Positions 51,752-64,000 of a stretch of DNA of 64,000 nt are shown here, piece after piece. This stretch comes from Phenylobacterium sp. GTDB taxonomy: Bacteria; Pseudomonadota; Alphaproteobacteria; Caulobacterales; Caulobacteraceae. The translations under genes and the position numbers were made by a program. Each line of letters begins with the position of its first letter. Position 1 is the stretch's first letter. The notes under the pieces are model-generated. The model worked only from the letters and a program-made list of their open reading frames with translations, searched no databases and was not told the DNA's origin. The stretch spans positions 1-64,000 of the forward strand of contig NZ_JACESE010000007.1 in the NCBI RefSeq assembly GCF_013911965.1, in the 5' to 3' direction.

Positions 51752-52321
51752 ATGCGCCTGGCCAAGCCAAGGATCGCCCCCCTCGCCGACGGGGAGCTCG
51801 ACGCCGACCAGAAGGAGCTCCTGGCGCCCATGGCCGACCGCGGCCGGGTCCTGAACATCTTCCGCACCCTGGCGCGCGCGCCGAAGGCGATGAAGGGCTT
51901 CATGGGCTGGGGCAACTACGTCATGTCCCGCCGCAACGATCTGCCGGCGCGGGAGCGGGAGATCGTCATCCTGCGGACAGGCTATCTCTGCCGCTCGGGC
52001 TATGAGTGGACCCAACACGTCCCGATCGGAAAGCAGGCCGGCCTGACCGACGAGGAGGTGGCGCGCCTCAAGGCCGGCCCCGACGCGCCGGGCTGGAGCG
52101 CGGCCGACGCCGCCCTGATCCGCGCCGCTGACGAGCTTCACCAGGACCAGTTCGTCACCGAGCCGACCTGGCGGGCCCTGGGCGAGCATTTCAGCGACAA
52201 GCAGCGGATGGACGTGGTCTTCACCGCCGGCCAGTACACCCAGGTCTCCATGATGCTGAACACCTTCGGCGTGCAGCTGGACGAGGGGCAGACGCTCGAT
52301 CCCGACCTGAAGGCCTTCTGA
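51752..52321 (+). CDS. carboxymuconolactone decarboxylase-family (AhpD-like) protein
   Basis: 189 aa. All-helical CMD fold: LNIFRTLARAPKAMKGFMGWGNYV, LPAREREIVILRTGYLCRSGYEWTQHVPIGKQAG and DVVFTAGQYTQVSMMLNTFG. The CxxC pair of AhpD peroxidases is absent (only one Cys), so a decarboxylase-like or unknown role is likelier. Its stop overlaps the start of the SDR gene by 1 bp. Such genes often sit with SDRs in aromatic or terpenoid/steroid catabolism. Confidence 0.88.
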   Translation: MRLAKPRIAPLADGELDADQKELLAPMADRGRVLNIFRTLARAPKAMKGFMGWGNYVMSRRNDLPAREREIVILRTGYLCRSGYEWTQHVPIGKQAGLTDEEVARLKAGPDAPGWSAADAALIRAADELHQDQFVTEPTWRALGEHFSDKQRMDVVFTAGQYTQVSMMLNTFGVQLDEGQTLDPDLKAF

Positions 52322-53118
52322 TGGGCCGGCTGGACGGCAAGGCCGCGGTCATCTGCGGCGCCGGCCAGACGCCGGGCGAGACGCTCGGCAACGGGCGGGC
52401 CATGGCGCTGCTGTTCGCCCGCGAGGGGGCGAAGGTCCTCTGCGTCGACCGGGTGGGAGAGCGCGCCGCCGAAACCGCCCGGATGACCGCCGACGAAGGC
52501 GGGGCGGCCGAGTGGCTCGAGGCCGACATCTCCAAGGCCGAAGGCGCTGCGGCGGCGGTGGCTGCGGCGCGGGAGAAGTTCGGGGCGCTGGACGTCCTGG
52601 TCAACAATGTCGGCATCGGGGGCGGCGACGCGCCCGCGCACCTGGTGGAGGAGCAGGCCTTCGACCGCATCCTGTCGGTGAACCTGAAGGGCGCCTGGCT
52701 GACGTCGAAGGCGGCCATTCCGGTGATGCGCGAACAGGGCGGCGGAGCGATCGTGAACATCTCGTCCCTGGCCTCCATCGCCGGCGGCATCCAGGTGGCC
52801 TACGAAGTGTCGAAGGCGGCGATGAACCGGCTGACCACAAGCGTCGCCCAGTCGAACGCCAAGTACGGGATTCGCTGCAACGCCGTCCTGCCGGGGCTGA
52901 TGGACACGCCCATGGCGGTGGACGGGATCGCCCGCGCCACCGGCCAGACGCCGCAGGCCGTCCGAGAGGCGCGCAGCGCCCGAGTGCCTCTGGGCGGAAA
53001 GATGGGCACGGCCTGGGATACGGCCTATGCCGCCCTGTTCCTGGCGTGCGACGAGAGCCGCTTCGTCACCGGCGTGCTGCTGCCGGTCGACGGCGGCATG
53101 TCCAGCCGCATCGGCTGA
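52321..53118 (+). CDS. short-chain dehydrogenase/reductase
   Basis: 265 aa. Classical SDR with cofactor loop GAGQTPGETLGNG, an unusually long glycine-rich loop, DVLVNNVGIGGG, catalytic Ser in NISSLASIAG and YEVSK (Tyr and Lys). The terminal FVTGVLLPVDGG matches oxidoreductases acting on hydroxy compounds. The Asp at the end of beta-2 (VLCVDR) suggests NAD+. Coupled to the CMD gene by TGATG. Substrate unknown. Confidence 0.92.
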   Translation: MGRLDGKAAVICGAGQTPGETLGNGRAMALLFAREGAKVLCVDRVGERAAETARMTADEGGAAEWLEADISKAEGAAAAVAAAREKFGALDVLVNNVGIGGGDAPAHLVEEQAFDRILSVNLKGAWLTSKAAIPVMREQGGGAIVNISSLASIAGGIQVAYEVSKAAMNRLTTSVAQSNAKYGIRCNAVLPGLMDTPMAVDGIARATGQTPQAVREARSARVPLGGKMGTAWDTAYAALFLACDESRFVTGVLLPVDGGMSSRIG

Positions 53119-53144
53119 AAACCATTTTCATTCAGGAGATTGCT

Positions 53145-53912
53145 TTGAAGAACCTGTTCAGCGTCGAGGGCAAGGTCGTCCTCATCACCGGCGGCAGCCG
53201 CGGCATCGGCGAGATGATCGCCCGCGGCTATGTGGAGAACGGCGCCAAGGTCTACATCTCCTCGCGCAAGGCCGAGGTCTGCGACCGGGTGGCCGAGGAG
53301 CTGTCGGAATACGGGACCTGCATTTCTCTGCCCTTCGACCTGGGCGGCATGGACGGGATCGAGGGCCTGGCCAATGCGGTCAAGGAACGCGAGTCCCGCC
53401 TGGACGTGCTGGTGAACAACGCCGGCGCCACCTGGGGCGCGCCCATCGACGAGTATCCCGAGGACGGCTGGGACAAGACCGTCGACCTGAACGTCAAATC
53501 GATCTTCTTCCTGACCCAGAAGCTGCTGCCCCTGCTGCGGGCCGCGGCCAGCGCCGACGAGCCCGCGCGCGTGATCAACATCGCCTCGGTGAACGGCATC
53601 GAGCCGCCGGCCCTGGAGACCTATGCCTATTCGACCTCCAAGGCCGGCTGCATCATGCTGACCCGCCACCTGGCCAAGCGGCTGGCGCCGGAGCACATAC
53701 TGGTCAACGCCATCGCGCCGGGGCCCTTCCCGTCGAAGATGATGGCCGCGACGCTCGCCCAGGCGGGCGACGCCATCGCCAAGAACAATCCCCGCGGCCG
53801 CATCGGCCAGCCGGAGGACATCGCCGGCGTCGCCATCTTCCTGGGCAGCCGCGCCTCGGCCTACACGACCGGCGCCACCATCCCCTGCGACGGCGGCTCC
53901 GCCGAGGTCTGA
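53145..53912 (+). CDS. short-chain dehydrogenase/reductase (gluconate 5-dehydrogenase/RhlG-like)
   Basis: 255 aa from a TTG start with CAGGAG 7 nt upstream. Cofactor motif TGGSRGIG, with Arg in YISSRKAEVCD suggesting NADP(H). NNAGATWGAPIDEYPEDGWDKT, catalytic YAYSTSKAG and the terminal YTTGATIPCDGG follow. The ATWGAP/PEDGWDK pattern is shared by RhlG-like and many catabolic SDRs. Lies 26 bp after the first SDR; the three genes form an operon. Confidence 0.9.
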   Translation: MKNLFSVEGKVVLITGGSRGIGEMIARGYVENGAKVYISSRKAEVCDRVAEELSEYGTCISLPFDLGGMDGIEGLANAVKERESRLDVLVNNAGATWGAPIDEYPEDGWDKTVDLNVKSIFFLTQKLLPLLRAAASADEPARVINIASVNGIEPPALETYAYSTSKAGCIMLTRHLAKRLAPEHILVNAIAPGPFPSKMMAATLAQAGDAIAKNNPRGRIGQPEDIAGVAIFLGSRASAYTTGATIPCDGGSAEV

Positions 53913-55896: not shown

Positions 55897-56385
55897 CTAT
55901 TCCCGCGTGTAGTGGTCCGGGATCTTCGGCTCCTTGCCCGCCTTGCCCCACAGGACGATCTCGTTGCCCCAGGGGTCGCGGAAGGCGTGGTTGAAGCCGT
56001 TGAACTCGGCCCAGTAGTGGTTCTTCCACAGGATGGTCGCGCCTCGGGCCTCGGCGGCCGAGAGGATGCGTTCGGGCGTGTCGTCGTCGCTGATCAGGAT
56101 CCAGACCCGCGGCTTGCGGCCGTCGCTGACGGTGCGGGGTTCGACGCCCTCGGGGTTCGGATGCGGCCGGGCGTTGGCCGTCTTGTGGATGCCGATGTGC
56201 AGATTGCCGATCTCGCTGTCGCTGCCGTCCGGATTGCGGAACTGGCCGCCCGGAACCAGCCGGTGATAGAGCCCCTTGGGCCGGGGATCGTCCTGCCAGC
56301 CGAAGACCTCGGCATAGAACTGGCCGGCGGCGGCGGGGTCGTCGGCGGCGAGGTCGACGAAGATCAGGGTGTTGGGATAGCCCAC
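55897..56385 (-). CDS. VOC/glyoxalase-fold protein
   Basis: 162 aa from the GTG at 56385 (AAGAGGAG upstream). NTLIFVDLAADDPAAAGQFYAEVFGW is the usual first beta-alpha-beta repeat, and NHAFRDPWGNEIVLWG the second, with metal-ligand positions. These belong to the vicinal oxygen chelate superfamily (dioxygenases, glyoxalases, resistance proteins). Function not assignable. Divergent from the RutE-like gene. Confidence 0.88.
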   Translation of the reverse strand: MGYPNTLIFVDLAADDPAAAGQFYAEVFGWQDDPRPKGLYHRLVPGGQFRNPDGSDSEIGNLHIGIHKTANARPHPNPEGVEPRTVSDGRKPRVWILISDDDTPERILSAAEARGATILWKNHYWAEFNGFNHAFRDPWGNEIVLWGKAGKEPKIPDHYTRE

Positions 56386-56614
56386 GGGAACTCCTCTTGG
56401 CTCACAGGCCGCCTGCGCGGCGCACGCGGAACCTAGGGGAGGGCGGGCCTCGGCTTCTTGTCCGTCCGCGCCGAGGACCTTGCCTGAGCGCGCAAAGAAC
56501 AAGCTCTGAGCGCTCTTCTGAAATTTTACTGAAAATGTGCAAAAGGACTGGTCAAACCGGCGCCGCAGCCGCCACCCTGGGCGGCATCGCAGTTCCTCGA
56601 TCCCAGGAGTTCAC
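56386..56614. other. 229-bp divergent promoter region
   Basis: Between the VOC gene and rutE-like gene. It holds an AT-rich patch (CTGAAATTTTACTGAAAATGTGC around 56519-56541) likely to be the rut-side promoter. No gene seen; TTCTGAAATTTTAC is a loose relative of the TGACATTTC motif found further down the cluster. Confidence 0.4.
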
Positions 56615-57202
56615 GTGCAGGACCTCGCCGACCGTACGCTCGACCAGCTCTTCCGCCAGGCGCGCACGCACAATGTGTGGTCCGACGAGCCGATCTCCGA
56701 GGCGACCCTCCACGCGCTCTACGAGCTTCTGAAGTGGGGGCCCACCTCCGGAAACTGCGGCCCCGGCCGCTTCGTCTTCCTGCGTTCGGCCGAGGCCAAG
56801 GAGAAGCTCTCGCCGCACCTGTCGCGCGGCAACCGGGCCAAGACCATGGCCGCCCCGGTGTGCGTGATCGTCGCCTACGACCTGAACTTCGCCGAGAAGC
56901 TGCCCTATCTCTTCCCTCACGACCCCAAGGCCAAGGACTGGTTCGCCGATCCTCAGGTCCGTTTCGAGACCGCCCTGCGAAATTCGAGCCTCCAGGGCGC
57001 CTATCTGATCATGGCGGCCCGGGCGCTCGGCCTCGACTGCGGCCCGATGTCGGGCTTCGACAACGCCGGCGTGGACGAGGCCTTCTTCGCCGGCACGAGC
57101 TGGCGGTCCAACTTCCTCGTGGCCCTGGGCCGCGGCAAGCCCGAAGGCGTCTATCCGCGAAATCCGAGGCTGGCCTTCGAGGAGGCCTGCCAGATCCTCT
57201 GA
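56615..57202 (+). CDS. rutE: RutE-like malonic semialdehyde reductase / nitroreductase-family protein
   Basis: 195 aa; GTG 56615 behind CAGGAG gives the family start (M)[21 protein letters not shown] and the family length (196 aa in E. coli RutE). FMN motifs [30 protein letters not shown] and [18 protein letters not shown] are those of the HadB/RutE subgroup. In uracil breakdown it reduces malonic semialdehyde to 3-hydroxypropionate. It heads a cluster with RutA- and RutB-like genes. Subfamily assignment is good, its exact substrate less so. Confidence 0.88.
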
Positions 57203-57239
57203 CGGCGGGCCGCGGAATCGCCGCGGCGCTGGCCGGTCC

Positions 57240-57249
57240 TGACATTTCA
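57240..57249 (+). promoter_or_regulatory. TGACATTTCA motif, candidate GntR operator (site 1)
   Basis: Lies 59 bp before the GntR start. The same sequence recurs at 58174-58183, with variants at 58186-58195 and, inverted, at 58293-58301, always in gaps around the GntR and TonB receptor genes. A good candidate site for the GntR protein in autoregulation. Confidence 0.5.
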
Positions 57250-57307
57250 GACTAAGCACTTGGGGTGACCAGGCCGAAGAGCCCGGCGTCCGGAGGAAGG
57301 AAGAAGA

Positions 57308-58078
57308 GTGGGACGGAGTGTCAGCGTGAACCCGGCTGCGGCAGGCAGAGAGACCCAGGGCGAGGGAATCATCGCCGCCACCGGAGAGTGGTCGCCGGAA
57401 CTGCAGAAGGCGCGCGCCTACGAGCAGATCCTGCTGGACATCATCCTGGGCGAACTGGCGCCTGGGGCGCGCCTCGACGAGCAGGCGCTCACCCGCCGCT
57501 ACAATACGGGCCTGGCCGGGGTGCGTGACGCCCTCGGTCGCCTGGCCCTGGAAGGCATGGTGGTCCGCCGCTCCCGCGCGGGCACCACGGTTTCGCCGCT
57601 CGACCTCGTCGATCTCCGCGAAGGCTACGAGGCCCGCGCCCTGATCGAGCCGCACTGCGCGGCCATGGCCGCGCGCAACGCCAACGAGGACGAGATCGCC
57701 CAGATCCTCGCCGCCTTCGACGACGCCGAGCGGGCGACGCGCGACTATGACCGCCGCGCCCTCGTGGCCATGGACCAGCGCTTCCATGCGCTGATCGCGC
57801 GGGCCAGCCGCAACGCCGCGCTCGCCCGCATCCTCATTCCGCTGCAGCACAAGGCGGCGCGCTTCTGGGTCTATTCCATGGGCGCGACCACGGAGGAGGA
57901 GCGGCTGGCCGACATCTGCCACCACCGCGCCATCGCCCAGCGGATCGCCGCCCGCGACGCCGAGGGCGCCCGCGCGGCCATGATCCTCGTCCTCGGCTCC
58001 ATGCCCCAGACCGTGCGGCGCTCTCTCACCGGCTTCGGCGAGGAGGACGCGCAATCGGCGAGCGCGGGTGCGGCCTGA
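57308..58078 (+). CDS. GntR-family regulator (FadR/FCD type)
   Basis: 256 aa; GTG 57308 behind GAGGAAGGAAG (a second GTG lies 18 nt later). Winged HTH at about residues 36-98 (YEQILLDIILGELAPGARLDEQALTRRYNTG; RDALGRLALEGMVVRRSRAGTTV seen as two helices). The FCD effector domain follows with EARALIEPHCAAMAARN, MDQRFHALIARAS (metal/ligand His) and HHRAIAQRIAARDAEGARAAM. Probably senses an acidic substrate or intermediate and controls this cluster. Confidence 0.9.
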   Translation: MGRSVSVNPAAAGRETQGEGIIAATGEWSPELQKARAYEQILLDIILGELAPGARLDEQALTRRYNTGLAGVRDALGRLALEGMVVRRSRAGTTVSPLDLVDLREGYEARALIEPHCAAMAARNANEDEIAQILAAFDDAERATRDYDRRALVAMDQRFHALIARASRNAALARILIPLQHKAARFWVYSMGATTEEERLADICHHRAIAQRIAARDAEGARAAMILVLGSMPQTVRRSLTGFGEEDAQSASAGAA

Positions 58079-58173
58079 CCACCTTCTGGTTGATCCCCGG
58101 CCCGGGGGTGATCCACGGGCGGGCGCCGCATCGCCGAAACTGAGCGTCAGGCGGGCGCCTCTGAAATTCCGTC

Positions 58174-58195
58174 TGACATTTCACGTGACATTTTT
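58174..58195 (+). promoter_or_regulatory. TGACATTTCA + TGACATTTTT, candidate GntR operator (sites 2-3)
   Basis: Two copies 12 bp apart, start to start, about one helical turn, in the 217-bp gap before the TonB receptor gene. The upstream TCTGAAATTCC partly inverts the motif. Placement suggests cooperative repression of the receptor promoter. Confidence 0.55.
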
Positions 58196-58292
58196 GACCT
58201 GCCGGGCGCGGCGGGCGAGCTTGTGTCCAAGAGCAGCGCGGACGCGGGGATAACCGCCACCCGGCGGAGGGTCCGCGCTCTCGGATGAGGGC

Positions 58293-58301
58293 GAAATGTC
58301 A
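58293..58301 (-). promoter_or_regulatory. inverted GAAATGTCA motif over the receptor start codon (site 4)
   Basis: Reverse complement of TGACATTTC, overlapping the ATG of the TonB receptor at 58296. Weak by itself, since it includes ATG, but its match adds to sites 1-3. Confidence 0.35.
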
Positions 58302-60680
58302 AAGAGACTTCTGCTGGTGGCGGGCGCCTCCCTGTCCGCACTGATTGCAAGCCCTGGGTTCGCCTGGGCCCAGGCCGACCTGGTCGACGAAGTGGTGGTG
58401 ACGGCGCGCGACAAGACGGGCCTTCTGGAGAAGGATCCCAGCGACAGCGTGTTCGGCCTGGACAAGGCCCTTATCGAGACGCCGCGCTCGGCCAGCTTCG
58501 CCAGCGACGTGACGCTGGAGCGCTATGGCATCCAGTCCATCGACGACCTGACGGCGGTCTCGCCCGGCACCTATACCGCCAGCTTCTATGGCGTGCCCGG
58601 CGCCCTGAACATTCGCGGCACCCTGGCGGAGAACTACTTCCGCGGCTTCAAGCGCATCGAGAACCGCGGCACCTATTCGACGCCGATCGCCGACGCGGCG
58701 CAGATCGAGATCGTCCGCGGCCCGCCCACGCCCATCTATGGCGCGGGCAAGGTGGGCGGCATGCTCAACTTCATCCCCAAGTCCGGGAAGATGGAGGGCG
58801 AGTACATCTCCGAGATCGGCGGCGACGTCTCGCTGACCGTCGGCTCGTACCAGAAGAAGCTGGCCAACGGGCAGATCAGCATCCCGCTCAACTTCGGCGG
58901 CACGGAGGGCGGCTTCCACCTGTTCGCCGAGGCGGAGAACTCCGAGAGCTTCTATCGGGGGATCACGCCCCGGAAGGAGATCATCGAAGCCTCCGTCGAC
59001 TTCGAGCTCGGCGACGGCTGGAGCACGGCCTTCGGCGGCATGGCCTACCACTCCGACGGCGACGTCCAGACGCCGGGCTGGAACCGCCTGACCCAGGAAC
59101 TGATCGACGACCAGACCTACATCACCGGCCGGGACACCACGCTGACGGACGCCAATGGCGACGGCAAGCTCACGCCGAACGAGATCGGCTTCTACCCGTA
59201 CGCCTCGGCGCTCTATCTCGCCTACTACGGCTTCCCGCAGTCGGACGCGAACCACACGCTGGACACCGGCGTGGGCACGACCAAGCTCGACCCGCGAACG
59301 GTCTACATCAGCGACGCCGACTTCTCGCACACCTGGACGCGGACGGCGTACTTCGACCTGGTCAAGGACTTCGACAACGGCTCGGCGCTGAAGTTCCAGC
59401 TCTTCTACGACGACCTGAAGAACAAGCGCTTCGTGTCCTACGGCTATCCGGCCTATTTCGACTCCTGGGTGGGTGAGGCGCGGGTCACCTACAACTTCGA
59501 CTACGACCTCGCCTTCATGACGTCGCAGTCCTTCGTCGGCGCCTCCTATCGCAAGTTCGACGGCAATCGGAAGGAGAGCTACAACTCCGGCCTGATCGCG
59601 CTCGACCGCCGCGACATCGCCTTCGGCGCCACGCCTAACGACATCATCGACGAGCCCTATTCCGTCGAGCCCTACGGCCTGCAGTGGGAGAACGACAACG
59701 CCTCCACCTGGAGCCAGGCGGGCGTGTTCTTCACCTCCGACATCTATTTCGGCGAGCGGCTGAACCTGATGATCGGCGGCCGCTATGACGACTACAAGGT
59801 CGAGTCCGAGGATACGGGCCTGGTCAGCTATCAGCCGGCCGGCGAAAAGAAGGACGGCAAGGGGAAGGGCACCTACACCGCCTCGCTGTCCTACCAGTTC
59901 GACTTCGGCCTGATGCCCTACATCACCTATGCCGAGGCCGCGGCGCTCGAGATGAGCCAGGCCGGCGACATCGCCCCCTCGCTGATCGCCAACCAGTCCT
60001 GGCTGTCGGACTCCGACCTCGCCGAGGCGGGCGTGAAGTTCCAGCTCCTGCAGGGCACGCTGGTCGGCTCCATCGCCGCCTACCGGCAGAACCGGACCCA
60101 GCTGACCGGCGGACCGAACCCGACGGTGCGGGGCAGCCGCTCCAAGGGCGTCGAGCTCGAGGTGCGCTATCTCGCTAGCGAGAATCTCAGCTTCACCTTC
60201 GCCGGCAACAACCAGAGCACGACCATTAAGGGACCGGACGCGAGCTTCGCCTATATCCCCTACTATGTGACGGGCGTCGATCCGGTGAACGCCTTCGGCG
60301 GGACCTATGTGGTGTGGGCCTTCTCCGACCTTCCGGGCCGGGGCGGCGACTACGACTACACCCTGATCCCCGAAACCGTGCTCAGCCTCTATGGCAGCTA
60401 CACCAGCGACGAGTACGCCTGGGGCCAGGTGGGCGGAACGTTCGGCGCCACCTATGTGAGCGAGACCGCGCAGACGGTGGAGAACCCGATCACCTATCCG
60501 TCCTACACCACCGCCAGCCTGTCCATGTTCTACCAGCGCGGTCCGTTCCAGGCCTCGCTGAACGTCGATAACGTCTTCGACGAGCTTTATTTCACGCCCG
60601 CCGCGGACTCCTACGCCAACCTCGCGGCCCTTCCGGGCAAGGGCCGCGAATGGCGGGTGACCCTGAAGCGGTCGTTCTGA
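58296..60680 (+). CDS. TonB-dependent receptor of the rut-like cluster
   Basis: 794 aa. Signal peptide to about residue 26 (GASLSALIASPGFAWAQ), TonB-box-like DEVVVTARD, a plug with SIDDLTAVSPGTYTASFYGVPG and IEIVRGPPTPIYGAGKVGGMLNF, and a barrel ending WRVTLKRSF. An EF-hand-like Ca2+ loop, DANGDGKLTPNEI (residues about 284-296), is inserted in a barrel loop. Sits between a GntR regulator and an MFS transporter in the rut-like cluster, so it probably imports the heterocyclic substrate or a polymer of it across the outer membrane. Confidence 0.9.
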   Translation: MSKRLLLVAGASLSALIASPGFAWAQADLVDEVVVTARDKTGLLEKDPSDSVFGLDKALIETPRSASFASDVTLERYGIQSIDDLTAVSPGTYTASFYGVPGALNIRGTLAENYFRGFKRIENRGTYSTPIADAAQIEIVRGPPTPIYGAGKVGGMLNFIPKSGKMEGEYISEIGGDVSLTVGSYQKKLANGQISIPLNFGGTEGGFHLFAEAENSESFYRGITPRKEIIEASVDFELGDGWSTAFGGMAYHSDGDVQTPGWNRLTQELIDDQTYITGRDTTLTDANGDGKLTPNEIGFYPYASALYLAYYGFPQSDANHTLDTGVGTTKLDPRTVYISDADFSHTWTRTAYFDLVKDFDNGSALKFQLFYDDLKNKRFVSYGYPAYFDSWVGEARVTYNFDYDLAFMTSQSFVGASYRKFDGNRKESYNSGLIALDRRDIAFGATPNDIIDEPYSVEPYGLQWENDNASTWSQAGVFFTSDIYFGERLNLMIGGRYDDYKVESEDTGLVSYQPAGEKKDGKGKGTYTASLSYQFDFGLMPYITYAEAAALEMSQAGDIAPSLIANQSWLSDSDLAEAGVKFQLLQGTLVGSIAAYRQNRTQLTGGPNPTVRGSRSKGVELEVRYLASENLSFTFAGNNQSTTIKGPDASFAYIPYYVTGVDPVNAFGGTYVVWAFSDLPGRGGDYDYTLIPETVLSLYGSYTSDEYAWGQVGGTFGATYVSETAQTVENPITYPSYTTASLSMFYQRGPFQASLNVDNVFDELYFTPAADSYANLAALPGKGREWRVTLKRSF

Positions 60681-60687
60681 TCCATGC

Positions 60688-60714
60688 GTCCGCCGGCCGG
60701 GCCGGCCGGCGGAC
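60688..60714 (+). terminator. hairpin after the receptor gene
   Basis: GTCCGCCGGCC (60688-60698) and GGCCGGCGGAC (60704-60714) pair over 11 bp around GGGCC. There is no T run, and the MFS gene follows 28 bp later, so it is likely an intra-operon attenuator or stability element. Confidence 0.5.
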
Positions 60715-60742
60715 CGCTCTGTGAGTTTCGAGGAGGCATGAC

Positions 60743-62053
60743 ATGCCCCGACTGGAATCGCTGCGTCCCTGGGTGCTCCTGGGCGTCTTCAGCCTGCTCC
60801 TGTTCCTGATCTCGGGCGCGACCTTTTCGTCTCTGGGCGTCGTCCTGCCGGCCATGGTCGCCGACCAGAAATGGAGCTGGGCCCAGGCGGGCCTGGGCTT
60901 CACCCTGCTGGGCGCCTGCTGCGGCGGCTCGGCCTGGTTCCCGCCCATCGTCATCCGCAGGTTCGGCGTCCGTGCAGCCCTGCTGCTGGGCACGGCGGTC
61001 ATGGCGGCGGGCTTCCTCTGCCTCTATGCGACGCCCAACGTCTGGATCTACTTCCTCGGCACGGCGCTGTGCGGCGTGGCCTACCAGTTGATGGCCCTGA
61101 TCCCGGGCACGCATGTCCTGGCGGCGGTGTTCCAGAAGCGGGCCATGGCGTTTGGCCTCTACTTCACCCTTGGCGGCCTGGGCGGCGTGGCCGGCCCGAT
61201 GATGGCGCTGGCCGTCATGGAGCTGACCGGCGGCGCATGGCGGCCCTTCTGGGCGCTGCAGGCGATCGCCGCGCTCGCCATCGGCGTCCTCTGCTCCCTG
61301 CTGATCCCGAGCAGCGCCTGGCTGCGCGCCTCCTCGGAAAGGATCGACGCGGCTGTGAAGGCCGAGGCCGAAGCGGCTGCGGCCGCGCCCCAGACCGCGC
61401 CTCTGGCGGTGTACCGCACGGTCCAGGACTGGACGCTGAAGCAGGCCATGGGGACGGTGCAGTTCTACATCCTGGTGGCGGCCTACTTCGTCCACCTGCT
61501 GTCCGGCGTGACGGTGTCGAGCCTTTCGGTGGCGCACCTGACCGAGCGGGGCGTCGCCGCCGGCGTGGCGGCCGGCATGCTGAGCCTGGAAGGCCTTATG
61601 GCCACCGTCGCCCGATTGGGCGGGGGCTTTATCGGGGATCGGATCGATCCGAAGTGGCTGCTGATCCTGGCGGTCGGGGCGCTTGGCATGGGGTCCTTGG
61701 CCCTCAGCGTGGCCGACAGCTACGCCCTGATGATCGTCTACGCCATCGGCACAGGCGTCGGCTTCGGCCTGACCGCGCTCGCCGTGACCATCCTCCTGCT
61801 CAACTACTACGGCCGGCAGAACAATCTGGAGATCTTCTCCACGGTCTGCCTCGTCGGAGCGGTCTCCGCGCTCGGTCCGCTGATCGGCGGCTCGCTGCGC
61901 GACCTGCTGGGCAGCTTCTCGCCCACCTTCCAGCTCTTCGGCCTGGTGGCCGCCGGCGTCTTCGTCGCCTCGCTCTTCATGCGCCCGCCGCAGATGAAGA
62001 GGGCGGGCGAGGGCGCCGCGGTCCCGGCCGGCCTGATCAACGATCCTGTCTAA
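60743..62053 (+). CDS. MFS transporter of the rut-like cluster
   Basis: 436 aa, 12 hydrophobic segments. AGLGFTLLGACCGGSAWFPPIVIRRFGVRAAL includes the MFS-type basic loop (IRRFGVRA), and LGGGFIGDRIDPKWLLI carries the GDRI loop. Resembles monocarboxylate/oxalate-formate-type MFS carriers. Gene order suggests inner-membrane uptake of the same compound handled by the TonB receptor. GAGGAGG ribosome site precedes the ATG; rutA-like follows after 11 bp. Confidence 0.88.
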   Translation: MPRLESLRPWVLLGVFSLLLFLISGATFSSLGVVLPAMVADQKWSWAQAGLGFTLLGACCGGSAWFPPIVIRRFGVRAALLLGTAVMAAGFLCLYATPNVWIYFLGTALCGVAYQLMALIPGTHVLAAVFQKRAMAFGLYFTLGGLGGVAGPMMALAVMELTGGAWRPFWALQAIAALAIGVLCSLLIPSSAWLRASSERIDAAVKAEAEAAAAAPQTAPLAVYRTVQDWTLKQAMGTVQFYILVAAYFVHLLSGVTVSSLSVAHLTERGVAAGVAAGMLSLEGLMATVARLGGGFIGDRIDPKWLLILAVGALGMGSLALSVADSYALMIVYAIGTGVGFGLTALAVTILLLNYYGRQNNLEIFSTVCLVGAVSALGPLIGGSLRDLLGSFSPTFQLFGLVAAGVFVASLFMRPPQMKRAGEGAAVPAGLINDPV

Positions 62054-62064
62054 AGGCGCGCGCC

Positions 62065-63129
62065 ATGTATCAGAAGCCCTCCCCCAACAAGGAATTCGGC
62101 GTCTTCCTGCCGGTGGCCAACGGCGGTTGGATCATCTCCAAGACCTCGCCGCCGCTCGACGACCTGTGGACCCAGAACCGTGCGGCGGCGATCACCGCCG
62201 ACGAGGTGGGCATGGACTTCGTCATGTCCATGGGCAAGTGGCGCGGCTTCGGCGGCGAGACCAACCACTGGGGCCACTCGCTGGAGTCGGTGACCATGAT
62301 GGCCGGCATCGCCGAGGCCACCAAGAACGTGAAGATCTGGGCCACCGTCCATCCGCTGCTGCAGAACCCCGCGGTGACGGCCAAGATGATCGCCACGCTC
62401 GACCACATCAGCGGCGGGCGCGCGGGCCTCAACATCGTGGCGGGCGCCTATCGCGCCGAGTTCGACCAGATGGGCATGTGGGACGACAGCCTCGACCACG
62501 ACGCCCGCTACGCGCTCACCGAGGAATGGACGGCGATCGTCAAGCGCCTGTGGAAGGAGGAGAGCGTCGATCACGCGGGGCGCTTCTTCACCATGAAGGA
62601 CGCCCAGTCGAACCCCAAGCCGCTGTCGCGGCCGCGGCCCGAGCTGATCTGCGCCGGCCAGTCCGATCGCGGCTTCCAGTTCTCCGTGCGCGAGGCCGAC
62701 ATCTGCTTCATCGGCGGCCGCACGCCGGAAGAGCGCCGCGACAACTCCCTGCGCGCCAAGAAGGTGGCCGAGGAGCTCGGCAAGTCGATCAAGACCTACG
62801 CCATGTGCACCATCGTCCACGGCGAGACCGACGCGAAAGCCGAGGCCATGGTCGAGCACTACAAGACCGGGACCGACATGGGCGCCATCCTGGAGATGCT
62901 GCGCAGCTGGGGCGTGCCGGCCGACAAGCTCGACGTGGTCGCCAAACAGCAGGGCGCCTTCATGACCCACACCGCCGTGGGCTCGCCTTCCACCTGCGCC
63001 GAGCAGGTGCAGGAGTATGTGGAATTCGCTCAGCTCGACGGGCTGATGCTGATCTTCCCCGACTATGTGGAGGGCCTGAAGATGTTCGGCGCGGAGATCC
63101 TGCCCGGCCTGCGCTCGGCCTTCGCATGA
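62065..63129 (+). CDS. rutA: RutA-like flavin-dependent monooxygenase (LLM class)
   Basis: 354 aa. Family traits visible: GVFLPVANGGWIIS, FGGETNHWGHSLESVTMMAGIAEAT, GGRAGLNIVAGAYRAEFDQMGMW and LICAGQSDRGFQFS. These are the RutA blocks of the bacterial luciferase-like superfamily, which opens the uracil ring (C4-N3 cleavage) with FMNH2 and O2. RutA homologues also attack other N-heterocycles and chloroaromatics, so the substrate is inferred from context. An ATGA overlap with the RutB-like gene shows tight coupling. No RutF flavin reductase is seen in the window. Confidence 0.88.
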   Translation: MYQKPSPNKEFGVFLPVANGGWIISKTSPPLDDLWTQNRAAAITADEVGMDFVMSMGKWRGFGGETNHWGHSLESVTMMAGIAEATKNVKIWATVHPLLQNPAVTAKMIATLDHISGGRAGLNIVAGAYRAEFDQMGMWDDSLDHDARYALTEEWTAIVKRLWKEESVDHAGRFFTMKDAQSNPKPLSRPRPELICAGQSDRGFQFSVREADICFIGGRTPEERRDNSLRAKKVAEELGKSIKTYAMCTIVHGETDAKAEAMVEHYKTGTDMGAILEMLRSWGVPADKLDVVAKQQGAFMTHTAVGSPSTCAEQVQEYVEFAQLDGLMLIFPDYVEGLKMFGAEILPGLRSAFA

Positions 63130-63791
63130 ACGCCGCGGCCCAAGCCGGGGCCGGCGCGCGAGACGGGCTGAGCGCCTGGATCGCGCCCGCGCGGACGGCC
63201 CTCGTCATCATCGACATGCAGGTCGACTTCGCCGCGCCGGACGGCCAGATCGGCCAGTGGGGCGTGGACCTGTCCGCCGTTCCGCCGGCCCTGGAGAAGG
63301 CGCAGGCCCTGGCGGCCGCGGCGCGGAAGGCGGGGACGCCGGTCGTCTTCGTCGCCCTGGTGACGCGCAAGGAGACCGACTCCGTCGCCTGGCGCGAGCG
63401 GATGCGCCGTCGCGGCGGGGATGCGGAGAGCGACTCCGGCCTGTGCCGCGCCGGTACGCGCGGCGTCGACTTCTACGGCCCCCAGCCTCTGCCGGGCGAG
63501 CCTGTGGTGGAAAAGGCGCGCTACAGCGGCTTCCACCAGGCCGATCTCGACGGGGTGCTGAAGGGGCTGAAGGTGGACACCCTGGTGGTGGCCGGCCTGA
63601 CCACCGAATGCTGCGTGGACTGCACGGTCCGCGACGCGTTCCACCTCGACTACCACGTGTTCGTAGCCCGCGACGCCTGCGCCGCCTACGAGCCCGACGT
63701 CCACGAAGCGGCGCTCAAGTCGCTCGAACTCAACTGCGCGATCCTGGTCGACACCGACCAGGTGGTCGCCGCCTGGGAGGAGGCCGCGTAA
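63126..63791 (+). CDS. rutB: RutB-like cysteine amidohydrolase (isochorismatase fold)
   Basis: 221 aa. Catalytic triad Asp in ALVIIDMQVDFA, Lys in VVEKARYSGFHQADLD, and Cys in AGLTTECCVDCTVRDAF. These match the ureidoacrylate amidohydrolase group and its relatives. It would hydrolyse the ureido/peroxy acid product of the upstream monooxygenase. Overlaps rutA-like by ATGA and the M20 gene by TAATG. Confidence 0.88.
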   Translation: MNAAAQAGAGARDGLSAWIAPARTALVIIDMQVDFAAPDGQIGQWGVDLSAVPPALEKAQALAAAARKAGTPVVFVALVTRKETDSVAWRERMRRRGGDAESDSGLCRAGTRGVDFYGPQPLPGEPVVEKARYSGFHQADLDGVLKGLKVDTLVVAGLTTECCVDCTVRDAFHLDYHVFVARDACAAYEPDVHEAALKSLELNCAILVDTDQVVAAWEEAA

Positions 63792-64000
63792 TGGCCGACG
63801 GAGTCCAACTGCCCGGCGCGCAGGCGCCCTTCGCCGTCACCGACGCCGACCGGGCCGCCATCGCCGCGGCCATCGACGAGACCGAGGCCGTCGAGCTGGC
63901 CCTGGCGCTGGGCAATATTCCGAGCCCGGCGGGGCACGAGTTCGAGGCGGGCAACTTCGTCTACGACTGGATGGCCAGGGAGGGGTTCAATCCCCGCAAG
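63791..64000 (+). CDS. M20-family metallohydrolase (partial, cut by the window edge)
   Basis: 70 N-terminal residues only. VELALALGNIPSPAGHEFEAG followed by YDWMAREGF matches the ArgE/DapE/aminoacylase opening (L-x-IPSPxGxE). TAATG overlap with the RutB-like gene. M20 members of this kind include N-carbamoyl amino acid amidohydrolases, which would fit removal of a carbamoyl or acyl group in the pathway. The active-site zinc residues lie beyond the window. Confidence 0.85.
   Translation, partial: MADGVQLPGAQAPFAVTDADRAAIAAAIDETEAVELALALGNIPSPAGHEFEAGNFVYDWMAREGFNPRK

Follow-up and report, generated by a model that had tools for sequence, protein, structure and literature searches.

The window analysed here is a stretch of 64,000 nucleotides from the soil/water bacterium Phenylobacterium sp., i.e., positions 1-64000 of the 205976-base contig C31 (NZ_JACESE010000007.1), which belongs to a genome of 3.86 Mb that is 99.99% complete. 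At its right end lies a gene set around a RutA-like flavin-dependent monooxygenase, and it is the relation of this set to the uracil-degrading Rut pathway, as well as its possible substrate, that we investigate in the following. Seven genes stand on the + strand, coding for a RutE-like nitroreductase, a GntR/FCD regulator, a TonB-dependent receptor, a major facilitator superfamily (MFS) transporter, the RutA-like monooxygenase, a RutB-like amidohydrolase and an M20 hydrolase. The initial annotation had described them as co-directional with ATGA and TAATG couplings, which we confirm: the RutA-like and RutB-like genes share an ATGA at 63126-63129, the RutB-like and M20 genes a TAATG at 63789-63793, and 11 base pairs (bp) separate the MFS from the RutA-like gene. 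That the set is complete within the window does not hold, i.e., the M20 gene runs across the window edge to end at 65173, a flavin reductase and a TauD-type dioxygenase then follow in the same run, and the gene set extends about 9 kb beyond position 64000. The genes of this run are (contig positions):

56615..57202, + strand: RutE-like nitroreductase, 195 amino acids, loosely associated (NF003768 malonic semialdehyde reductase, 304 bits, cut-off 152)
57308..58078, + strand: GntR/FCD regulator (PF00392, PF07729)
58296..60680, + strand: TonB-dependent receptor, 794 amino acids (PF00593, PF07715)
60743..62053, + strand: MFS transporter, 436 amino acids (PF07690)
62065..63129, + strand: RutA-like flavin-dependent monooxygenase, 354 amino acids, of a non-RutA clade (TIGR03612 below cut-off, tree, residues)
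63126..63791, + strand: RutB/BiuH-like isochorismatase-fold amidohydrolase, 221 amino acids (PF00857)
63791..65173, + strand: M20 hydrolase, 460 residues, related to 5-nitroanthranilate aminohydrolase (PDB matches); the window holds the 5' part, 63791..64000
65173-65682, same run, overlapping the M20 end: RutF/HpaC-type flavin reductase (profile matches)
65694-66506, same run, 11 bp after the reductase: TauD-type dioxygenase, TauD1 (profile matches)

Both the RutE-like and the GntR gene are set off from the genes that follow them, by 105 bp and 217 bp, respectively. The nearest named relatives of the monooxygenase, from Phenylobacterium and other Caulobacteraceae metagenome-assembled genomes, are 93-96% identical to it.

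With regard to the RutA equivalog model TIGR03612, the monooxygenase scores 266.1 bits and does not reach the curated cut-off of 498.3. In a 35-row maximum-likelihood tree, for which 35 of 71 sequences were used and which carries a long-branch warning (for L059, L060, L084, L111 and L112, among others), the protein falls in a 24-row group (support 98/90); the 22 proteobacterial rows of the window clade are supported with 100/95. A 28-row group holding the window protein (99/96) stands apart from the 5-row RutA group with E. coli RutA (98/95), i.e., the protein lies outside the orthodox uracil clade. A third RutA-like group comprises four rows (100/99).

The active site is altered as well. Among 53 core sequences, RutA W139, which we take to be a substrate-contacting residue, is replaced by A in 52 and by S in one, Q140 by Y in 52 and by F in one, and L65 by M in all 53. 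The residues K69, T105, N134, V136, E143 and F224 are retained in 53/53. In RutA, the oxygen pocket is lined by T105, N134 and V136, and mutants at these positions were inactive, except for T105S (PMC7662398). Since these oxygen-site residues are retained while W139, Q140 and L65 are altered, it is likely that flavin-N5-type chemistry has been preserved and that the change concerns the substrate side. The most informative single test was a search with E. coli RutA in 30 genomes, selected by us among those of the available loci. All 30 show at least one match of the window kind (34-40% identity to E. coli RutA), and in 17 of them a canonical RutA (62-70% identity) is present in addition. No canonical RutA was found in the genome studied here and in 12 others of the 30, several of which are metagenome-assembled. 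Judged from its sequence, the RutA-like protein is a paralogue of RutA whose active site is altered and which lies outside the RutA clade.

Similar observations hold for its partners. The RutB-like protein reaches 95 bits for RutB (cut-off 378) and 99 bits for BiuH (cut-off 370). The biuret amidohydrolase BiuH is thus its best NCBIfam model, but the score is far too low for an assignment and no s-triazine genes were noticed in the window cluster. In 37 genomes of one genus, a RutB-like search gave matches of 32-35% in 8 genomes. For the flavin reductase at 65173-65682, the RutF score of 91 bits (cut-off 255) indicates an HpaC/RutF partner type and not RutF itself; a flavin reductase partner, as in the Rut pathway, is thereby present.

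Compared to E. coli rutABCDEFG, the set is alike in that a RutA-family gene is followed by a RutB-family gene with overlapping ends, accompanied by a flavin reductase and a RutE relative. It is unlike in that the curated RutA, RutB and RutF cut-offs are all missed and that a TonB receptor, an MFS transporter, M20, TauD, Rieske and extradiol enzymes are added. RutC, RutD and RutF had been reported as not seen. For RutF, this is because the window edge cuts the set, which continues past 64000 with the RutF/HpaC-type reductase directly after M20. For RutC and RutD the earlier statement stands: reading the genes up to contig position 74999 turned up neither of them, nor RutG, with no search aimed at the RutD family. 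PF00860, the uracil/xanthine permease family to which RutG belongs, has 0 matches in the whole genome, whereas a control search was positive in 11 of 14 known genomes. PF01042, the RidA family that includes RutC, has two matches, which lie on other contigs (C33 and C12). An orthodox Rut operon was rejected in view of the missed cut-offs, the separate clade, the residues, the canonical RutA that coexists in 17 of the 30 genomes and the lack of the permease family. Clade, residues and coexistence, together with rutC, rutD and rutG not having been found beside the genes, also bear out the earlier expectation that the substrate is probably not, or not only, uracil.

The M20 hydrolase is present as annotated, but that reading was incomplete, i.e., the protein is more telling as a relative of an aryl-amine hydrolase. 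Against the Pfam M20 model it scores 19.8 bits, which is under the cut-off of 24.6. Residues 33-439 match 5-nitroanthranilate aminohydrolase (5k8p/5k8m) with 292 bits (E 6e-86), and no other PDB relatives were found up to E 0.01. 5-Nitroanthranilate aminohydrolase replaces an aromatic amine ortho to a carboxylate by OH. Its HLDT, GEI..EP, RGG and SMWRD motifs are common with the window protein, while the two differ in NDRG in place of NCKG. A 5-nitrosalicylate dioxygenase-like gene was not noticed beside M20, with no search aimed at one. Given this full-length relationship, hydrolysis of an aryl amine is predicted for the window protein. In 394 actinobacterial genomes, M20 relatives were limited to two weak matches (25-26% identity) within a, by eye, different Rieske/hydrolase setting.

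To the right of TauD1 and to the left of the RutE-like gene, the following genes were considered:

66579-67238, - strand: glutathione S-transferase (GST)
67409-68242, - strand: short-chain dehydrogenase/reductase (SDR)
68244-69128, - strand: second TauD-type gene (TauD2)
69389-70591, + strand: Rieske oxygenase, closest to carnitine/glycine-betaine monooxygenases
70588-71406, + strand: DOPA-type extradiol dioxygenase (336 bits, cut-off 233)
71429-72520, + strand: acetamidase/formamidase-family protein (amidase)
72532-73497, + strand: AraC regulator
73494-74402, - strand: ribokinase-type gene (best model TIGR02152, below cut-off)
55897..56502 as listed open reading frame (the start may be further in), - strand: glyoxalase/vicinal oxygen chelate (VOC)-fold protein, likely a pathway member (PF18029, PF00903)

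To assess conservation, 60 related loci from named genomes were used, of which L061-L064 were left out such that 56 are counted. Identity thresholds are not the same for all genes, several genomes contribute two loci, and a gene located outside the flank escapes the count; the argument is the regularity itself, with no chance baseline behind the counts. Among the 56 loci, the RutB-like gene is found in 52, MFS in 45, the TonB receptor in 44 and M20 in 42, while GntR occurs in 18 and the RutE-like gene in 7. That is, the RutE-like gene is present and co-directional as annotated, but both its 105 bp gap and its occurrence tie it only loosely to the set. For the 38 loci of at least 21 kb, the RutB-like gene is always present, followed by M20, TonB receptor and MFS (32 each), TauD1 (28), reductase (26), SDR (22), TauD2, Rieske, extradiol and VOC (19 each), amidase (17), GntR (11), AraC (9), the RutE-like gene (4), ribokinase (3) and GST (0). 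GST was ruled out as a pathway gene, since none of the 56 related loci shows it at an identity of at least 50%. The GntR gene is directly upstream of the monooxygenase in L123-L125. Homologues of the VOC protein from Kozakia are found in 22 of the 56 loci and also in L085 and L107; for the window's own VOC-fold protein (55897..56502), no NCBIfam match was obtained. Further upstream (window 51752-53912), carboxymuconolactone-decarboxylase-like and SDR genes were named by eye, the first two of which match in place in close relatives, e.g., L007, L010 and L012.

Related sets are found in Caulobacteraceae, Hyphomonas and Hyphomicrobiales as well as on plasmids of Kozakia, Novosphingobium, Paraburkholderia and Acinetobacter. 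According to the distributed annotation, the Kozakia baliensis plasmid carries most of the set between IS5 genes, plus a TonB receptor and a reductase of PDR/VanB type that suits the Rieske protein; TauD genes recur there with the cluster. The Novosphingobium resinovorum plasmid shows extradiol, amidase, VOC, Rieske, AraC, SDR, monooxygenase, RutB-like, MFS, ribokinase and TonB receptor genes. On both plasmids (L084, L085) and in L118, the receptor is of a different type from the window's, i.e., the three are 33-57% identical mutually and 24-27% identical to the window receptor over part of its length, such that the role recurs though the protein differs. A short form of MFS, monooxygenase, RutB-like, M20, reductase and AraC genes is found on the Paraburkholderia and Acinetobacter plasmids; on that of Acinetobacter baumannii (L083 12122-16616), it stands among IS66 and IS3 elements. 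Within Caulobacteraceae the distribution is patchy (monooxygenase gene in 36/149 genomes at E 1e-100), and in a phylum sample 3/398 genomes match at E 1e-75, one being the genome studied here and one from its family. Patchy occurrence and plasmids fit an accessory pathway that moves between hosts. The gene set is real, conserved and mobile-looking.

Some loci deviate from this picture. The Caulobacter-type loci L038, L040, L042, L043, L048 and L052 show pairs of monooxygenase and RutB-like genes with no receptor or MFS match nearby, M20 being also found at L038 and L043. Going by the record titles, five of these six genomes also gave a locus with a fuller cluster (L023, L024, L021, L035 and L027). 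In two metagenome genomes (L041 548-4515, L044 44-3831), a HyuA/HyuB-like pair and a cupin, identified by eye, are located directly upstream of the cluster. No Rfam matches at gathering level were obtained in six loci. We did not recognise the gene set in the literature on RutA-type, M20 and lumichrome catabolism, judged mostly from titles and the starts of abstracts.

These counts also bear on a variant uracil or thymine pathway, in which the RutA-like and RutB-like enzymes would act on uracil or thymine, the RutE-like enzyme on malonic semialdehyde and M20 would replace RutC/RutD. Relatives of RutA, RutB, RutE and RutF are all present, the oxygen-site residues are retained and this genome has no canonical RutA, which would be in accordance with such a variant. 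On the other hand, canonical RutA already exists in 17/30 genomes, W139, Q140 and L65 are altered, the genome has no gene of the uracil permease family, the RutE-like gene occurs in just 7/56 loci, M20 is kin to an aryl-amine hydrolase and aromatic-ring genes travel with the set. We consider this variant quite improbable.

From what was observed, i.e., genes, families, clade, residues and synteny, we infer the reactions, their order and the substrate. On balance, we lean towards a catabolism of a uracil-type (pyrimidine-2,4-dione) ring that is fused to an aromatic ring, with the set in the window forming the upper part. Here, a scarce or large compound would enter through the TonB receptor and the MFS transporter. 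With FMNH2 from the downstream reductase, the RutA-like monooxygenase would open its uracil-type ring at an amide using RutA-type flavin-N5 chemistry. The RutB/BiuH-like enzyme would remove the ureido group as NH3 and CO2, and M20 would swap the resulting aryl amine for OH, like 5-nitroanthranilate aminohydrolase. TauD and Rieske oxygenases and the DOPA-type extradiol dioxygenase would then open the remaining ring. The opening of a fused uracil-type ring and the removal of its ureido carbonyl would leave an ortho-amino carboxylate, which matches the substrate type of the M20 relative, while simple uracil would yield aminoacrylate, for which such an M20 enzyme makes little sense. The recurrence of Rieske, extradiol, amidase, VOC and SDR genes with the cluster on the Kozakia and Novosphingobium plasmids supports the fused-ring pathway.

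A precedent for this logic is the lumichrome catabolism of Nocardioides simplex, where the pyrimidine ring of 7-carboxylumichrome is opened by LumH, the urea is then cleaved by LumI (24 kDa) and the amine that is formed is hydrolysed by LumM (52 kDa), and where a Rieske dioxygenase and an extradiol dioxygenase later open quinoxaline and catechol (PMC12746152). The authors state that variant lumichrome pathways may exist and describe lumichrome as a signal in plants and in quorum sensing (PMC12746152). The predicted pathway would have in common with it that a fused uracil-type ring is opened, its urea and then its amine are hydrolysed, and Rieske and extradiol steps follow, and the window set provides a 221-residue amidohydrolase, a 460-residue aryl-amine hydrolase relative, a Rieske oxygenase and an extradiol dioxygenase. 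The differences between the two are considerable and include the ring opening, which is hydrolytic for LumH and predicted to be oxidative for the window set.

Concerning the substrate, the window contig as well as L016, L039, L046, L085, L124 and L125 show a ribokinase-type gene that adjoins the cluster, in several arrangements. TIGR02152 (ribokinase) is the best model for the genes of the window contig, L039, L046 and L085, with 216-273 bits not reaching the cut-off of 299.65; the gene of L107 is weaker (83 bits). These neighbours hint at a ribose-bearing substrate such as riboflavin, while being no proof, and give a first indication of sugar involvement for the nucleoside or conjugate that the initial annotation had considered. 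A flavin-derived alloxazine (lumichrome, with the ribose going to ribokinase) is, tentatively, the single most likely substrate, though unproven and by itself less likely than not. A related reading, likewise less likely than not, is that the set represents an undescribed Gram-negative flavin breakdown, in which a dedicated TonB receptor would take up riboflavin or lumichrome, an alpha-ketoglutarate or Rieske oxygenase would free ribose for the ribokinase and the RutA-family flavoenzyme would open the uracil ring of the flavin. A DszA-like monooxygenase beside the pair in Glaciihabitans was rejected as riboflavin lyase (DszA 262 bits vs. riboflavin lyase 183).

Several observations weigh against the fused-ring pathway and its flavin version. 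M20 is lacking in 6/38 loci (L040, L042, L048, L050, L054, L055) and Rieske in 19/38, the Rieske protein is nearest to carnitine/betaine-type oxygenases, and the clade member L060 carries G at position 139 and R at position 140. Ribokinase is found in 3/56 loci of the first scan and 2/11 of a later set; the roughly 13 kb downstream in OR37 and Root343 gave no match, and neither did the stretches of Kozakia, Hyphomonas and L056. There is no obvious ribose-freeing gene, and no riboflavin lyase was found among the three luciferase-family genes of the genome. These code for the window monooxygenase, for a protein whose best PDB match is another monooxygenase and for a 331-residue protein that was assessed by eye. 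Counterparts of LumU, LumJ and LumKL were not noticed in the open reading frames read, nor were P450, xanthine-oxidase or thiamine pyrophosphate-dependent decarboxylase counterparts, with no dedicated search made. The resemblance to the Lum pathway is one of apparently shared logic and not membership. Finally, amidohydrolase-family proteins are located beside the pair in L119 (810-2321) and L120 (11700-13103), with no M20 match found there, such that an exocyclic amine might be removed before the ring is opened.

The latter corresponds to an amino-heterocycle pathway, i.e., M20 or an ATZ/TRZ-type enzyme would deaminate the exocyclic amine of a thiamine-type pyrimidine, pterin or purine-type compound before the RutA-like enzyme opens the dione. 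It is in line with L119 and L120, given that atrazine chlorohydrolase is the nearest PDB match of the L120 protein, and with a sister RutA-like clade that occurs near TenA, thiamine-pyrimidine-like transporters and aminohydrolases. Around the window clade, however, no TenA or thiamine genes were noticed in the open reading frame lists and annotated plasmids, although no dedicated search was made, and Rieske and extradiol dioxygenases suit a benzenoid ring better than pyrimidine or imidazole. We regard this pathway as unlikely for the window set.

The sister clade is the third group of the tree and consists of L086 9977-11086, L087 9986-11092, L088 9977-11095 and L089 10001-11119, with S139, N140, P141 and D143. 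Two of its four members (L086 and L089) are found near TenA, thiamine-pyrimidine-like ABC transporters, aminohydrolases and an M20 deacylase, that of L089 being annotated as N-formyl-aminomethylpyrimidine deformylase. This looks like thiamine-pyrimidine catabolism, for which deamination before ring opening seems likely. Beside this, a plasmid of Variovorax RA8 (L112 4565-13035) combines a divergent RutA-like gene with SDR, isochorismatase, isocitrate-lyase-like, leuCD and RibBA genes, which is apparently another heterocycle pathway.

The genes might also form two independent adjoining modules, one for a heterocycle (receptor, MFS, RutA-like, RutB-like, M20, reductase) and one for aromatic degradation or N-dealkylation (Rieske, extradiol, amidase, AraC). 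Each block of the window has its own regulator, the Rieske gene is lacking in 19/38 loci, and the short form of Paraburkholderia and Acinetobacter shows, as far as recognised, the first module alone, with an AraC-type regulator. In contrast, the blocks are adjacent and partly interleaved in Kozakia, Novosphingobium, L056, G323 (L075/L107) and L118 (there with no Rieske match), and such persistent adjacency is hard to explain for unrelated blocks. Two independent modules are unlikely, while being partly compatible with a fused-ring substrate.

Flavin-N5 oxygenation has in RutA one of its model enzymes, and genes like those found here are easily mistaken for uracil genes; they should not be named rutA. 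A sister clade with altered neighbours of the oxygen site that is linked to a TonB receptor and to a relative of an aryl-amine hydrolase would demonstrate that RutA chemistry serves larger heterocycles. If the flavin version of the fused-ring pathway is true, a flavin-dependent enzyme would destroy flavin, and the set would be a candidate Gram-negative route for the removal of vitamin B2 or lumichrome.

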